Below, one piece after another: positions 7,692 to 52,571 of a DNA stretch of 64,000 nt (positions are counted from its first letter, which is position 1; each line of letters starts with the position of its first letter). The stretch is from assembly GCA_900637705.1 (NCBI GenBank), contig LR134390.1:1984001-2048000 (forward strand), read 5' to 3'. The stretch comes from Fusobacterium varium. Its GTDB lineage: Bacteria > Fusobacteriota > Fusobacteriia > Fusobacteriales > Fusobacteriaceae. Under the pieces are notes generated by a model. It ran no database searches and was not told the origin of the DNA. It worked only from the letters and a program-made list of their open reading frames with translations. Made by a program: the position numbers and the translations under genes.

Positions 7692-7973
7692 TTATTCTAT
7701 TACTAATATTTTTGATTGTACAAATTTTATTGTTTTTTTAGGAACTATTTCTCTTATTTCATTTGATGTTGGACTTCCTATTCTTCTCTTTTTTCTTTTT
7801 AAAAGCGAAAATGTTCCCTTATTTTTAAATTTTACTTCTTCATCCATAGCTGTTACTTCTACTATTAGATTAAATATTTCTTCTATCTCTTCCCTTGCTT
7901 CTTCATATTCTATTGTTTCATCTTGTTCTTTTCTCAATTTTTTGTAATATGATACAAATTCCCTAGTGTTCAT
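7692..7973 (-). CDS. divergent HU/IHF-like DNA-binding protein (second of pair)
   Basis: 93 residues. The C-terminal half, 'VKFKNKGTFSLLKRKKR' followed by 'SNEIREIVPKKTIKFVQSK', follows the HU/IHF pattern of a beta-strand ('..F.GFG.F'), a basic arm and a final 'PA.K...FK..K' strand-helix. The N-terminal half is unusually acidic (EEAREEIEEIFN). HU proteins bend DNA as dimers. It overlaps the upstream paralogue by 11 bases, implying coupled translation and perhaps a heterodimer. It ends the polysaccharide transcription unit. Sequence is divergent, so specific function is open. Confidence 0.7.
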   Translation of the reverse strand: MNTREFVSYYKKLRKEQDETIEYEEAREEIEEIFNLIVEVTAMDEEVKFKNKGTFSLLKRKKRRIGSPTSNEIREIVPKKTIKFVQSKILVIE

Positions 7974-8274
7974 ATTCCTCCTCTATGAGAGTATTGAGCT
8001 CATTTACTTTATCTATCATTTTCATTCTAGGTTTAAATTTGATAACTTTCTTTTCTTCTGTTATCATCATTTCTCTAGTAGCTAAATTAAGTATTTTTCT
8101 TGGTTTTACTTCTTTCTTTTCAAATATTCCCCAGTCTTTTATTATTACTTTTTCCTCTTCTTCTAAAACATCAAAAAGAGCTTTCCAGAAAGAATCTAAT
8201 CTTTCTTTTGCTTCTCTTATGCTTTTTAGATTCCTTCTTTCCTTGTATAAGATTAAAAACTCTTTTTCTGTCAT
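7963..8274 (-). CDS. divergent HU/IHF-like DNA-binding protein (first of pair)
   Basis: 103 residues with the same plan as the following gene: an N-terminal helical part (MTEKEFLILYKERRNLKS), then 'VIIKDWGIFEKKEVKPRK' and 'KKVIKFKPRMKM', matching the HU core and the K-rich C-terminal strand. The start is preceded by AGAAAGGA. Only 30 bases separate it from the stop of wzx, with no terminator visible in the gap, so it is probably transcribed as part of the polysaccharide operon. A degraded tandem HU-like pair with the same 'WGVFEKKEVK' stretch occurs at 52124-52571. Confidence 0.72.
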   Translation of the reverse strand: MTEKEFLILYKERRNLKSIREAKERLDSFWKALFDVLEEEEKVIIKDWGIFEKKEVKPRKILNLATREMMITEEKKVIKFKPRMKMIDKVNELNTLIEEEYEH

Positions 8275-46681: not shown

Positions 46682-48758
46682 CTATATTTTATAGATAAAA
46701 AGTGTTATTAACATTATTATAAAACTTGACATAAACCAGAATATTTTTTTCAAATTAAAAATATACTTATATTTTATTTTCTTATATTTATAAAAAATAC
46801 ACTTAAAACAGTTATTAATAATAATGCATATAACAAGAAATAGTAATAATCTAGATACAATAATTCATCTGTTGCTATATTATCTCTAAGACGGCTCTGA
46901 GATAATATAACTGTAAAAAATAATCCTGATGAAGATCCTAAAGTAAATTCCACCCTCTCATTTTCTTTCCCATCTTCTATTAAAATTAATATTCCAAATA
47001 CCATTGACAAAATGATAAAAACTGGAAGAAGACTTGAGATAAATGGAGATAGCATATTCCTTTTTAAATAAATATTGAAAACAAGCTCATGCTCTAAATT
47101 AGAAAGCTTATTAAAACTGAAAAAAGTTCCTATCATATTCCAGCCACTAAGAACTATATCTTTCCTAATTCCATGATTAGATGACATTAATATTCCCTCA
47201 GGGTAATCTGTAAAATCTGGAACTACAACTTTTCCCTGATACATACCTCTTCCCTGCATTTTTAATGAAATTATATTACTTTCAAGAGGATACTTATAAT
47301 AATTAAATTCCTCTCTGAGAAGCATTAAAAACTTTTTAGTAATAATACCATCTCTCTCATTTATAACCCATTCACTATATTCTACAGCATCAGGAAAAAA
47401 AACATCATATTTAGGTTCACTTTCGTGTTGTATTATTCCTGTTATTTTTACATTGTTTGCCTCTTTAAATTCTAGTGATTCTATTTGTAACTTTATTGTA
47501 AGATCTTTACTTAATTTATTTGTCCATAAATAATTATTTAATGCTTCTTTATTATTTATTGTATCAAATCTTCTCATTTCTTCTTTTAATGAACAATAAT
47601 TTATTATTCCTATAAAAGCACATACAAGAAATATTTGTATCCCTGAAATTAATGCTATTTTTTTCCAAGATATTTCTTTTAAATTCATTATGAGATAACT
47701 TCCTAAAAATAATGAGAAAAATATTATCATTAAAAATAAATCTTTTTTTATATCCACTATTCTTCCTACAATAGATTCCTCATCTATAGCTACTATTCCT
47801 ATATATAAAGGTATTTGTGAAAAATATTTATATCCCATAATTGAAGATTGAGATGTTAATTTATTCTTAGTCAATCTTGAAAAATATTCTAATGGATTTT
47901 TCTTATATAATTCTTTTGCAGTCTTATATAAATTTTTATCTTTATCTATTAAAGATTCAGTGAATAAATCTATTCCTAGAAGTTCTTCTTTTGGGTGATA
48001 TATATATCTTGTTGATGGAGATATTAAGAATAAATACTCATATCTTTTAAATTCTGGAGTTTTGAGGAGAGTCTTTAAAAACAAATTGTAATTTTTTATT
48101 TCCAGATAATAAATTTTCCCATTTTCTTTCTTATAAAATCGCATATTTTTCCCTGAAATAATTGGGTATTTTAGTGATTCACTATAATATTTTTCCTTCA
48201 ATGTATTAAATACTTCTCTAGAAAAAGTCACTTTATAATCATTATTTATTGCTACTACTCTAACATTTTTTAATTTTTTATTTTTTAATTTTTTTCTATT
48301 TCGTCTAAAGTATTTAACTCTTCAGATAAAATTTTTTCTAATTTTTTATTGTTGCTATCATTCTCTTTTGATATAATGATTCCATTATTGATAGCAGAAG
48401 AAAATTTTTCTCTAATATATGGAAGTTTATATATTGTGTAATTTTGGCTTATAGTAGTTTTAGGCTTATAAGGAAGATAATTATTAAATATGTTATTATA
48501 ATTAATTTTATCTTCATCTATCTCTTCCCATTTAAAAGTTTTTAAATACAAATCTAACTTTTTTTCTGCCAAAGATAATGATTTTTCTATTTCATTATCT
48601 AATTTTGTCTTTTCATCATATATTACATAAAAAAACTTTCCCATGAAAAAAAGCGATAAAACTATGAAAATAAGCAATACCAAATTTTTAATTTTTTTAA
48701 TTACACCATTAATTTTAAAAAAATTCTCTTTTCTTTTTTCCTCTTCTAAATTTTCCAT
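46682..48758 (-). CDS. Cache sensor fused to a pentameric-ligand-gated-ion-channel-like domain (frame interrupted twice)
   Basis: The start at 48758 gives an N-terminal membrane helix (residues about 25-48) and periplasmic sensor sequence. A missing base in the T7 run 48289-48295 separates it from the main frame, and one in the T4 run 46777-46780 cuts off the end; restored length is about 692. Order: helix, Cache/PDC-like domain ('FLISPSTRYIYHPKEELLGI'), two helices with a K-rich inside loop, a beta-rich domain with 'YYKYPLESNIISLKM' matching the Pro-loop (YPFD) of bacterial channels such as GLIC, then M1 ('FISSLLPVFIILSMVFG'), M2 ('FTLGSSSGLFFTVILSQS'), M3 ('YLDYYYFLLYALLLITVL') and M4 ('FWFMSSFIIMLITLFIY'). 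Inside loops are positively charged as topology predicts. Confidence 0.7.
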
Positions 48759-48984: not shown

Positions 48985-49026
48985 AAGAAAAAGCTGGATA
49001 AAACATCACTTTTATCACAGCTTTCC
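48985..49026 (-). terminator. terminator after the DUF2589 cluster
   Basis: On the minus strand AAAGCTGTGATAAAA, a short loop, TTTTATCCAGCTTTTTCTTT: a stem with a U-rich tail about 40 bases after the last gene. The remaining bases between 48796 and 48984 are A/T-rich with no visible gene. Confidence 0.8.
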
Positions 49027-49068: not shown

Positions 49069-49347
49069 TTAATCTGCTATTAATAAATTACCAGGAAGAA
49101 CAATTCCTCTTCCATCTCCCTCTTCTACAGCACCTGATTTTGTTGTTCCATTTTCTGTCCAAACAACATATAAAGATTTTCTTCTCCCTACAAAAGGATC
49201 TCCTGCAATATCATTTCCTGCTTTAAATTCTCTTTTTCCTGTTTTATATCCAGCTTTTATTTTTTCAGTTACATCAATTGTTTTTTCATGATATCCATAT
49301 CCTGCAAAAATAATAGTATTCTGTCTTAATTTATTTATTAATTCCAT
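49069..49347 (-). CDS. small beta-domain protein resembling DUF3395
   Basis: 92 residues. 'AGYGYHEKTIDVTEKIKAGY' and 'NDIAGDPFVGRRKSLYVVW' follow the pattern of DUF3395-like domains (a DVT-K core, N-D-x-x-G-D-P, then a YVV-x-T strand) seen at the C-terminus of some DnaJ-type proteins and as stand-alone small proteins. No signal peptide is present. Last gene of the XRE-DUF2589 cluster, 24 bases after the lysozyme-like gene. Function unknown. Confidence 0.7.
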   Translation of the reverse strand: MELINKLRQNTIIFAGYGYHEKTIDVTEKIKAGYKTGKREFKAGNDIAGDPFVGRRKSLYVVWTENGTTKSGAVEEGDGRGIVLPGNLLIAD

Positions 49348-49371
49348 AATTAATCCTCCTCAATTTTTATT

Positions 49372-49923
49372 TTACCATTCTCTTTCTATATTATTCCATC
49401 TTCTTTTAACATCTTCTGGGTGCTCTTTTCCCCATTTTAAACCTAATTTAAAGTTAAGTACGTCTTCTGATGTCAGTAGTAGCCACTGATGCATTTTTCC
49501 ATTTTTGCTTAAACAAAATTGGTTGTGATAATCCACAAGATGAACAAAAGTTTTTTCGTCCATATCTGGAAGTTTTTCCAATGAAGCAACATGAGATATC
49601 ATTTTCTTTATATGTTCAGCATCTAAGTCATCTATCTCTTTTCTATGAGCCTTCAATTTTTCATTTAATGGAGCTATATCTTTATCCAGTTTTAAAAGTT
49701 TATCCATCTCTGCCTGTGTAAAACCACATTTATTTCTAAGAAAATTTCTAGCTCCCTCATTATGCTTCACATCAAACTGACTTCTTCCAAAACTATACCC
49801 AGATATTCCTCCAGCAAAACTAAATTTGCATATAACATTTTCATTCCCACTTATTTCATTTAAAGCTATTACTTTCATAACTTTTTGAGTATCAATAATT
49901 TCACATACATCTTTGACTTTCAT
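49372..49923 (-). CDS. possible lysozyme-like protein of the DUF2589 cluster
   Basis: 183 residues without a signal peptide. 'LNEISGNENVICKF' followed by 'GGISGYSFGRSQFDV' (about residues 21-51) resembles the active-site region of T4-lysozyme or pesticin-like muramidases, where an early Glu is followed by a G-Y-G/S-x-G-x-x-Q-x-D stretch. The rest is helical and charged. I do not recognise a named family with certainty. It lies between a 102-residue orphan and the DUF3395-like gene, each within about 25 bases. Confidence 0.6.
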   Translation of the reverse strand: MKVKDVCEIIDTQKVMKVIALNEISGNENVICKFSFAGGISGYSFGRSQFDVKHNEGARNFLRNKCGFTQAEMDKLLKLDKDIAPLNEKLKAHRKEIDDLDAEHIKKMISHVASLEKLPDMDEKTFVHLVDYHNQFCLSKNGKMHQWLLLTSEDVLNFKLGLKWGKEHPEDVKRRWNNIEREW

Positions 49924-49932
49924 TATTACCTC

Positions 49933-50241
49933 CTATTTTTTAGTAAGTACCAGCTTTATGTTGTTATCTTTTTTGATGACTTCATAATTAAATACTTCTT
50001 TTTTTTCCAAACCCTTCTTTATATCTTCTATTATATCATCATCTTTAAAAGAAAAATATATTCTGGCTGAATAAAAATTATATTTTTTTAGTGTATTTTC
50101 CAAATATATTATTTCATCAGCTATATAGAATATCTTTTTAGAAAAATCTTTTCTCTTTTCTTCAGGGGTTTTAAAAAATTTTCTTTTTATCCTTTGGAAG
50201 AAGTTCTTAATTTTTTTATTCCTCATCTTCATCATATACAA
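49933..50241 (-). CDS. hypothetical basic protein
   Basis: Up to 102 residues. The N-terminal 30 residues are strongly basic ('MRNKKIKNFFQRIKRKFFK'), then a helix and a beta-alpha-beta-like end ('FNYEVIKKDNNIKLVLTKK'). The start could be any of several Met codons between 50226 and 50241; the longest form overlaps the DUF2589 gene upstream by 26 bases. No recognisable family. Membership of the cluster is inferred from tight spacing. Confidence 0.6.
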   Translation of the reverse strand: MYMMKMRNKKIKNFFQRIKRKFFKTPEEKRKDFSKKIFYIADEIIYLENTLKKYNFYSARIYFSFKDDDIIEDIKKGLEKKEVFNYEVIKKDNNIKLVLTKK

Positions 50242-50842
50242 CTTTTTTATTCTTTTTCTTTAAAGAATTTTTTCTCTTTGGAGCTTCCTCTATTTCTTCT
50301 TCCTCTTCAATATCCTCTTCATTTCCCTCTTCATCAATTAAGGCATACAAAAGAGGTCTATTTCTAAATTCGTCCATTATTCTTTCTATTCCCTCTGGAT
50401 TATCCTGCTCTTCAAACTTTAATTTTATTCCTATATTATTTGAAGTTCTTCCTTTAGTATTATCACTGGTAGGAGCAAGGGTAACTTCAAAACTGGTTCT
50501 ATCAGCATATCTTACTTCATCTTCTTCAGGAATCCCCTCTTTAGTCTTTACTTTTCCCTCATCTATTCTTACATTAAGCTCTATTTCTATTTCTTTAAGT
50601 CTTAATCCTTTAGGTTCTGTCAAAGCCAAAAGAGGAATACTTGCTTTTTTATTATCCTGTACTTTAAAATTATACATTATAGGATTTCCATCTTCATCAA
50701 AGTACTTTCCTATAGATTCAATATAATGATTATTTAATATTTGCTGAGCAGCATTAGCTGAATAAAGAAGTCCTCTTGTTATATCTGAAAGGGATTGGTC
50801 ATTTTGCGACTTTCTAACTTTCCATGGATAACATTTTATCAT
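50216..50842 (-). CDS. DUF2589-like protein with acidic tail
   Basis: 208 residues. 'SLSDITRGLLYSANAAQQILN' opens the protein, followed by beta-rich sequence with 'IPLLALTEPKGLRLKEIEIEL', which parallels the 'PFIAMTGIPNLSMELVTIDF' strand pair of the next gene and supports a DUF2589-type relationship. The C-terminal 40 residues are an acidic, then K-rich tail that is probably disordered. Not exported by sequence. Its neighbour upstream is the clear DUF2589 protein, so the two may form a heteromeric assembly; function unknown. Confidence 0.65.
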   Translation of the reverse strand: MIKCYPWKVRKSQNDQSLSDITRGLLYSANAAQQILNNHYIESIGKYFDEDGNPIMYNFKVQDNKKASIPLLALTEPKGLRLKEIEIELNVRIDEGKVKTKEGIPEEDEVRYADRTSFEVTLAPTSDNTKGRTSNNIGIKLKFEEQDNPEGIERIMDEFRNRPLLYALIDEEGNEEDIEEEEEIEEAPKRKNSLKKKNKKVVYDEDEE

Positions 50843-50895
50843 TTTCTCCTCCTCATATTCTAGTGAGAGGGCTCTTATGAGCCCCCATTAAATTA

Positions 50896-51474
50896 TTAGG
50901 CAGCACTATTTATAATACTTTCTGTATTTCTAGGTGCATTTCCATCTGTTACTTGAGCTGGTTTAGTTACATCATTAGTTATTGCTTCAATTATTCTCAT
51001 CAATGGTTCTGGTGTTTCTTGCTTTCTAGCTTCTACATGGAAAGTATATTTAGATCTTGTATCTGATTTTCTTGTCTGCTCTGATTTATGTGATACACTA
51101 CCACTAAATTTTACTCCAAAACAACCTCCTGAAACACTTGCTCCTACATCAGTAGAACTTGTACTTGTATCTGAAGTAGAAATTTCCATTTCAAAATCTA
51201 TTGTTACTAGTTCCATTGATAAGTTTGGAATCCCAGTCATTGCTATGAATGGTGCAGAAATTGTTTTTTCTACTCTCTCTCCATTTTCAACTGCTGAATA
51301 ATTAAAATTAACATTTTTTACATTTCCATTTTCATCAAGAGCTACCTCTTTGATAAAATTGTACATAGAAGCACTTAATTGTTTTTGTGCATCTACTACT
51401 GCTACTAATGGACTTGCTACTAATGATTCTATTGGTATTGCTTTTAATTGATTTCCTGTAAATGTTTCTGACAT
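50896..51474 (-). CDS. DUF2589 family protein
   Basis: 192 residues. 'IPIESLVASPLVAVVDAQKQ' (about residues 14-33), 'PFIAMTGIPNLSMELVTIDF' and a following Ser/Thr/Gly-rich stretch are the DUF2589 signature. GGAGGAATTA precedes the ATG. It is the first gene after the internal promoter-operator at 51501-51546 and probably the most highly expressed member of the cluster. The biological role of DUF2589 is not established to my knowledge. Confidence 0.85.
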   Translation of the reverse strand: MSETFTGNQLKAIPIESLVASPLVAVVDAQKQLSASMYNFIKEVALDENGNVKNVNFNYSAVENGERVEKTISAPFIAMTGIPNLSMELVTIDFEMEISTSDTSTSSTDVGASVSGGCFGVKFSGSVSHKSEQTRKSDTRSKYTFHVEARKQETPEPLMRIIEAITNDVTKPAQVTDGNAPRNTESIINSAA

Positions 51475-51500
51475 ATTAATTCCTCCAATTTTTTAGTTTT

Positions 51501-51546
51501 TCTCTAGAGATAATTGGATTATATATCTTGATTAGTTTTATACCAA
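51501..51546 (-). promoter_or_regulatory. promoter plus TCTCTAGAGA operator for DUF2589 genes
   Basis: On the minus strand -35 TTGGTA (51541-51546), a 17-base spacer, -10 TATAAT (51518-51523), then 7 bases and the perfect palindrome TCTCTAGAGA (51501-51510) at the expected transcription start. The same arrangement with the same distances occurs upstream of the XRE gene. Confidence 0.8.
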
Positions 51547-51561
51547 ATTTGTAATCTATTA

Positions 51562-51828
51562 TTATTTTTCCCTCTTTTTCTTTGGATTGTATGCCTTAAA
51601 AAATATTTCCATTACTTTTAGAAAATTTATATCTAATATTTGACAAATTTCTACAAGTAGCTTTATATTCATTTCGTTTATACAATTTTCATAACAGCTT
51701 ACTGTTTTTTGTGATATCCCTAATTTTTTAGAAAATTCCTTTTGAGTATATCTCTCTTCCCTAGTTTTTCTTATTTCCTGAACTATTTCCTCATAACATT
51801 CATCATAAATCATTGTCCATTTACTCAT
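51562..51828 (-). CDS. XRE-family helix-turn-helix regulator
   Basis: 88 residues with one HTH_XRE domain: 'YTQKEFSKKLGISQKTVSCYENCINE' (about residues 27-52, shown in part as the recognition region). No extra sensor domain. GGAGGGAA precedes the ATG. The palindrome TCTCTAGAGA at its own promoter and at the DUF2589 promoter makes it the obvious candidate for an autoregulating repressor of the cluster (inference). Confidence 0.88.
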   Translation of the reverse strand: MSKWTMIYDECYEEIVQEIRKTREERYTQKEFSKKLGISQKTVSCYENCINEMNIKLLVEICQILDINFLKVMEIFFKAYNPKKKREK

Positions 51829-51888: not shown

Positions 51889-51934
51889 TCTCTAGAGATA
51901 TACGAATTATACAACTCTTTAATATTTATACCAA
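51889..51934 (-). promoter_or_regulatory. promoter plus TCTCTAGAGA operator for XRE regulator
   Basis: On the minus strand -35 TTGGTA (51929-51934), 17-base spacer, -10 TATAAT (51906-51911), 7 bases, then TCTCTAGAGA (51889-51898). The spacing is identical to the DUF2589 promoter. Confidence 0.8.
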
Positions 51935-52123: not shown

Positions 52124-52375
52124 TTATTTCATTATATTTTTTGATACTCTAAATCTTACTGCCTTTCTAGGATAAATTTTCATCAATTCTCTAGTTGATA
52201 GGTTGCTTATCACTTTTGGTTTTCTTTTTGCTGTTTCAAATATACATCTGTTGACAAATGTTACTGAATCATATTTTTACAAGGCTTCCTGTAGAGTTTG
52301 TGAAGTATATCTATTTCTTCTAGTGCTGCCTTTTGTGATACCTTTGTATAGATTTGCTAATTCTTTCTTATTCAT
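52124..52375 (-). pseudogene. degraded HU-like gene (second of pair)
   Basis: From ATG 52373-52375, 'MNKKELANLYK' starts like an HU-like protein; after a stretch that only makes sense in another frame ('KVSQKAALEEIDI'), the main frame resumes with 'LQEAL', a TAA codon, then 'KYDSVTFVNRCIFETAKRKP' and 'PRKAVRFRVSKNIMK', the HU core and C-terminal strand. The in-frame stop and the local frame excursion indicate true decay. The intact relatives are at 7692-8274. Confidence 0.65.
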
Positions 52376-52571
52376 CAGCATCAATTCCATTAACTGCATC
52401 TTGCAAACCTGTTCCTGTTCTAAATCATATCTTTTTCTTTGCTTCAATTATTACTGCTTCTTTCATTTGAGGTGTCACTATTTTTCTTGCTTTTACTTCT
52501 TTTTTCTCAAATACTCCCCAATTATTTAATACTACTTTTCCATAGATAGTATGTATCTTTAGTTCCTCCAT
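52368..52571 (-). pseudogene. degraded HU-like gene (first of pair)
   Basis: The frame from ATG 52569-52571 reads 'MEELKIHTIYGKVVLNNWGV' and 'FEKKEVKARKIVTPQ', nearly identical in pattern to 'IIKDWGIFEKKEVKPRKIL' at 8.1 kb. It lacks the N-terminal helices and is interrupted by TGA after '..IIEAKKKI', with 'FRTGTGLQDAVNG' continuing. It overlaps the following pseudogene by a few bases, as the intact pair does. Confidence 0.6.

Follow-up and report, generated by a model that had tools for sequence, protein, structure and literature searches.

Holin/peptidoglycan-hydrolase cassettes outside phages, as in Serratia, Salmonella and Yersinia entomophaga, have been defined as type 10 secretion systems (T10SSs) (PMC10109510, PMC10847048); non-lytic wall remodelling was first proposed for type 10 secretion, and a lytic mode has been documented for a T10SS (PMC10847048). 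The six-gene cluster described here, which lies in a 64,000-nucleotide stretch of Fusobacterium varium DNA (the window), resembles the T10SSs in that a phage-type peptidoglycan hydrolase stands outside a prophage, under apparently tight transcriptional control and with candidate coregulated cargo; some loci encoding its DUF2589-type proteins elsewhere also carry GH108 enzymes of the TtsA family. It differs in having a DUF2589 pair in the operon instead of a recognised holin or spanin, and in that its cargo is a candidate. Since no holin was found (a hydropathy scan gives neither a hydrophobic segment nor a signal peptide in any of the six proteins, the latter in agreement with the initial annotation, and none matches a holin family), we do not file the cluster as a T10SS member. 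The holin-endolysin-spanin lysis cassettes of phages are also close, in that the cluster endolysin comes from a prophage family of the same genus and DUF2589 genes stand just before the endolysin gene in some phages; the cluster, however, appears to be a stand-alone chromosomal operon with an XRE regulator and, by eye, no phage genes. With bacteriocin operons that carry release genes it shares a regulator and a release enzyme, and related loci in Pseudomonas add a nuclease with a small immunity-like gene, but the cluster itself has no recognised toxin-immunity pair and its operator is not known to be SOS-controlled.

We put at about even the chance that the cluster is a domesticated phage-lysis module that is repressed by its XRE protein, has no recognisable holin and possibly releases coregulated cargo. 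The initial annotation made no choice between a particle for release, a bacteriocin-like system and a stress-induced defence module; the evidence leans to lysis and release, because of the phage lysis neighbours of DUF2589 genes, the EndoU-type nuclease and small gene of Pseudomonas, and a satellite gene that differs between relatives. The features are as follows.

49069-51828, minus strand: operon of six genes (from the list of open reading frames, ORFs)
51889..51934, minus strand: XRE promoter, TTGGTA-17-TATAAT (51934-51906), with operator palindrome TCTCTAGAGA (51889-51898)
51562..51828, minus strand: XRE-family helix-turn-helix (HTH) regulator, 88 aa (Pfam HTH_3, E 1.1e-7)
51501..51546, minus strand: operon promoter, TTGGTA-17-TATAAT (51546-51518), with operator palindrome TCTCTAGAGA (51501-51510)
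50896..51474, minus strand: DUF2589-A, 192 aa (PF11655, E 1.6e-26, 94 bits)
50216..50842, minus strand: DUF2589-B, 208 aa, acidic C-terminal tail (PF11655, E 4.1e-18, 66.6 bits)
49933..50235, minus strand: basic orphan, 100 aa, no convincing family match (dN/dS 0.19-0.23)
49372..49923, minus strand: predicted phage-type endolysin, lysozyme superfamily, 183 aa (AlphaFold2 fold, prophage paralogs, conserved residues)
49069..49347, minus strand: small protein, 92 aa, no family; weak relative in the Mariprofundus DUF2589 locus L093
48988..49026, minus strand: intrinsic terminator of the operon, hairpin followed by a U-rich stretch

All six proposed ORFs are confirmed, as are the XRE and DUF2589 assignments, both DUF2589 scores lying above the Pfam gathering cut-off for PF11655 (23 bits). 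The promoters, which had been called matching, are indeed the same TTGGTA-17-TATAAT element before the XRE and DUF2589-A genes, each with the same palindrome downstream, and both promoter-operators are kept in two related genomes. The 12-mer TATCTCTAGAGA has just four copies in the 3.3 Mb genome, two of them at the cluster. The terminator holds up as well: its hairpin has a folding energy of -16 kcal/mol (z -4.4), equalled by none of 200 shuffles, and a simple terminator scan made no call at 48988-49026. All six genes are under purifying selection in related genomes (dN/dS 0.03-0.39 over all genes and pairs, the top values being those of the 92-aa gene). Gene order, shared promoter-operator, terminator and purifying selection together establish the cluster as a real operon, and the ORFs around it read, by eye, as chromosomal genes. 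Searches of the six proteins against PHROGs, NCBIfam and PADLOC returned only HTH matches, and Rfam gave no match. Beyond the terminator, two adjoining ORFs (46774-48758; 157 and 485 aa) seem to have been split by a frameshift, because in a relative (L023, 9276-11366) they form one intact gene for a 696-aa membrane protein.

The presence of the operator at both the XRE gene's own promoter and the operon promoter makes the XRE protein the likely repressor of the two. The operator signature persists in two related genomes, G002 and G009, in which a search found no close XRE homolog; this counts against the assignment and makes it a tentative one. HU-like small proteins can be seen by eye at 52277-52571 and 7692-8274: a degenerate HU-like stretch lies upstream of the cluster XRE gene, and in three genomes (G000, G001 and G007; L253-L255) an XRE paralog (62-67% identical) stands immediately behind an HU-like pair that is intact. 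This suggests that the cluster regulator came from an HU-HU-XRE unit.

The identity of the endolysin is the firmest part of our reading. The initial annotation had guessed at a muramidase and proposed comparison with the T4 lysozyme structure; the predicted fold and the prophage paralogs support this, in that the fold prediction places the 183-aa protein in the lysozyme superfamily and its descent marks it as a phage endolysin, with putative enzymatic activity. Two paralogs are present in the same genome and up to three in related genomes, located at the end of prophage tail modules, 3' of genes that read as tail-fibre genes and 5' of holin genes; two of the adjoining holins match Phage_holin_4_1 (PF05105, E 2e-35 and 6e-37). 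Relatives also occur on nine IMG/VR contigs. In a tree of the family across the genus, the four copies from the cluster group together as a single clade (100/99), so that domestication is most simply a single event. The AlphaFold2 model (pLDDT 89) gives its best VIA match to a GH46 chitosanase (4olt, Z 10.8, 175 residues aligned, rmsd 4.0), with T4-type (GH24) lysozymes at Z about 9 and the other listed matches being lysozyme fusions and GH46 enzymes. The protein thus shares with GH46 and GH24 enzymes a predicted superfamily fold and a glutamate at a helix end, but differs in having only about 10% identity to them, no Pfam family and no match in sequence-profile searches (PDB, single sequences and profiles). 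Middling Z values are common among helical models and the Foldseek E-values are weak (best 0.12), and the fold call therefore rests jointly on the match lists, genomic context and conserved residues. A GxSGxSFGRSQFD motif, Asp131, Asn134 and Gln135 are invariant across 23 sequences; Glu23, at the helix end, does not vary among the 15 sequences of the genus and hardly varies in the wider set. Candidates for the catalytic residues are Glu23 and Asp51, and, judging by the starts of the aligned ranges, Glu23 would occupy the place expected of Glu11 in T4 lysozyme.

The role of the DUF2589 proteins is the interesting but more tentative part. DUF2589-A and DUF2589-B are paralogs (hhalign probability 98.7); a literature search gave no published function for DUF2589, only a passing mention, and PDB searches with single sequences and profiles gave no relative. 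DUF2589-A is predicted to begin with a long helix, followed by a sheet of four strands and a further helix at the C terminus. Its AlphaFold2 model, made without a partner, is of moderate confidence (pLDDT 68, low at residues 102-136), and with this model Foldseek and VIA found no resemblance to a solved fold (best Z 3.3); nothing suggests a particle, contrary to the earlier description of the pair as structural-looking. Over 51 homologs, hydrophobic and polar positions alternate in the insert at residues 102-136, along two strands that flank a turn of GWGP type (lag-2 autocorrelation 0.36 versus -0.03 +/- 0.15 in shuffles; mean beta-moment z 2.2, alpha-moment z -0.8, z values that are descriptive only because the homologs are not independent). 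Amphipathic beta-hairpins are typical of beta-pore formers, and of ordinary sheets too. The conserved hairpin of DUF2589-A could, we infer, act on membranes. A bolder proposal, which we hold to be quite unlikely, is that DUF2589-A and DUF2589-B constitute a new kind of lysis protein, i.e. a cytoplasmic heteromer that would insert the hairpin of A into a membrane and would thereby stand in for a holin, a spanin or both, in phages as well as in domesticated cassettes for release.

The pairing of DUF2589 genes with hydrolase genes recurs widely. A scan of named genomes gave 80 DUF2589 loci in Pseudomonadota, Helicobacter, Arcobacteraceae, Brachyspira, Bacillus, Phascolarctobacterium, Myxococcales bins and others, with A and B adjacent on the same strand in 77, across several phyla, and GH24 or GH19 within 3 kb in 44 of the 80. 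Two layouts stand out, namely A-B-GH24 lysozyme (Burkholderia, Ralstonia, Enterobacter, Leminorella) and B-A-small protein-...-GH19 (Pseudomonas, Azospirillum); Muramidase (PF11860), GH108 and Amidase_3 are also near some pairs, with GH108 (TtsA family) directly before B-A pairs in three loci (L113, L114, L117). In 35 dereplicated loci the 128 proteins within 2 kb include 7 GH24, 4 GH19, 3 GH108, 8 Mor activator and 10 GerE proteins. Among the 144 proteins at 5 kb or more, HMMs built from the near families found no hydrolase or Mor protein, and the hydrolase and Mor families are absent from the 25 most frequent Pfam families listed. The neighbourhood check proposed at the outset thus did find recurrent lysozyme-like partners (GH24/GH19/GH108, 14/128 near versus 0/144 far; Fisher p 1.8e-5), together with Mor-type activators (8-9 near, 0 far). 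The other half of the expected co-occurrence proved weak, a relative of the 92-aa protein being found in one distant locus only. The pair occurs with hydrolases of differing families in chromosomal cassettes of Burkholderia, Ralstonia, Enterobacter and Pseudomonas, as if the combination were under selection. Against a lysis module counts that some half of the dereplicated pairs lack a hydrolase within 2 kb. At L049 (14354-16433) and similar Burkholderia/Paraburkholderia loci, two or three tandem copies of 205-aa proteins without a Pfam family lie downstream of the A-B-GH24 operon.

The pair is also present in phages, on 80 IMG/VR contigs of about seven lineages; a terminase large subunit, an SU10-type capsid, a DNA polymerase and an endolysin were confirmed on the sampled contigs. 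Tblastn searches of named phage records with the endolysin and DUF2589-A found none, whereas IMG/VR contigs do hold both. Sixty of the pair contigs carry a phrog_3000-like family, nearly always within 2 kb of the pair, that looks like a YkuD-type wall enzyme; its members (L125, L133, L144, L154) have an H-x13-SAGC motif and are sometimes fused to PG_binding_1. In 19 of the 60 this putative wall enzyme and the pair share a strand and are 0-1.2 kb apart; in the other 41 the enzyme is on the opposite strand, convergent, where the pair follows recombination-like genes. The latter layout is unlike a late lysis operon and speaks more than anything else against a simple role in lysis. It favours the explanation that the DUF2589 pair is another kind of phage accessory, early or structural, whose closeness to lysis genes reflects phage descent only, as does a single viral relative in BFVD. 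Archaeoglobus has no murein. Its DUF2589-related genes (PMC3949148) count against the lysis-module reading and likewise fit an accessory of another kind. We regard this explanation as possible though doubtful, because chromosomal cassettes keep the pair together with hydrolases of different families.

The cluster is patchily distributed, DUF2589 being found in 3 of the 61 related genomes searched; a DNA-level search of E. coli genomes gave no match. A fourth genome, G002, has the genes for the endolysin and the 92-aa protein, along with a disrupted remainder of the 100-aa gene but without XRE or DUF2589 genes, at the same place beside the same aquaporin-like gene; this state is loss by deletion and not a stage before assembly of the cluster. 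Retention of the endolysin and 92-aa genes there implies that the endolysin may act without the pair. Such patchiness and loss, with a dedicated XRE regulator beside a lysis enzyme, would suit abortive defence or stress suicide, in which the pair would sense infection or damage and the endolysin would kill the cell without any cargo. We consider this unlikely, since PADLOC matches only the generic HTH and no other member, the pair itself is found in phages, and both the Pseudomonas EndoU-type genes and the satellite operator gene suggest cargo.

With respect to the latter, the full promoter-operator signature occurs at 11 sites in 5 of 12 genomes of the genus and at none in reversed controls. 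The one further full copy in the genome that contains the window precedes a 94-aa gene 1.27 Mb away, a candidate for coregulated cargo, and the fourth TATCTCTAGAGA copy lies inside a coding region without a promoter. The same 94-aa gene is found in G001, where the operator has a one-base variant; in G007 a different 92-aa gene stands behind the same promoter with the same neighbouring genes; and G002, without the full cluster, has two other genes behind the promoter-operator, one of which encodes a C39-like peptidase. Behind the GH19 gene of the Pseudomonas loci come genes for a secreted EndoU-type nuclease and a small immunity-like protein, and a Rhodospirillales bin has the nuclease and small gene without GH19; we view these as a candidate toxin-immunity pair with lysis genes of its own. 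Examples at the ends of DUF2589 operons are L104:12848-13696, L105:12865-13760 and L107:11914-12781.

On the reading as a domesticated lysis module, the XRE protein would bind TCTCTAGAGA at its own promoter, the operon promoter and one unlinked promoter, and keep all three off. Induction would lead to cytoplasmic synthesis of DUF2589-A, DUF2589-B and the signal-less endolysin; the two DUF2589 proteins, probably joined in a heteromer, would give the endolysin access to the wall or weaken a membrane; and cleavage of peptidoglycan would cause the cell, or a subpopulation, to lyse or leak, thereby releasing coregulated cargo, for which the 94-aa satellite protein is a candidate. An alternative in which the wall is remodelled in a controlled way, without lysis, to let a few proteins out could draw on the endolysin's lack of a holin of its own and on the three loci with GH108 partners, but is highly improbable given that a T10SS is documented to act lytically and that cargo is here only a candidate. 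The fixed pairing of DUF2589 proteins and their recurrent association with unrelated hydrolases provide a first testable role for DUF2589 and suggest a so far unrecognised route by which cells burst or leak to release something. If the lysis-module reading is true, a holin-less variant would join the lysis and release cassettes that bacteria took from phages; a hairpin that acts on membranes would be a beta-type equivalent of the helical holins.

The two small proteins have no convincing match to a described family. The 100-aa protein stays an orphan, as first described; its gene starts about 20 bases before that of DUF2589-B ends, and its equation with the small third gene of the Pseudomonas, Brachyspira or Helicobacter loci was rejected for want of profile support. 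The 92-aa protein had been labelled DUF3395-like, a label that was dropped because it has no Pfam match at E<=1; its membership of a family of ~90-aa proteins beside DUF2589 elsewhere found no support, and its PDB matches to 'Cake' designs are repeat artefacts (about 3 bits per repeat). In G009 (L229:5443-5633) a short frame downstream of the operator signature has the ending IVLPDNLAI, which resembles the C terminus of the 92-aa protein (IVLPGNLLIAD), possibly as a deletion scar and possibly by chance. Satellite sites in related genomes (L227:4388-4742, L228:5162-5668 and L252:4639-5256) carry small genes that differ from each other, and that of G007 is near a tyrosine-integrase-like gene.
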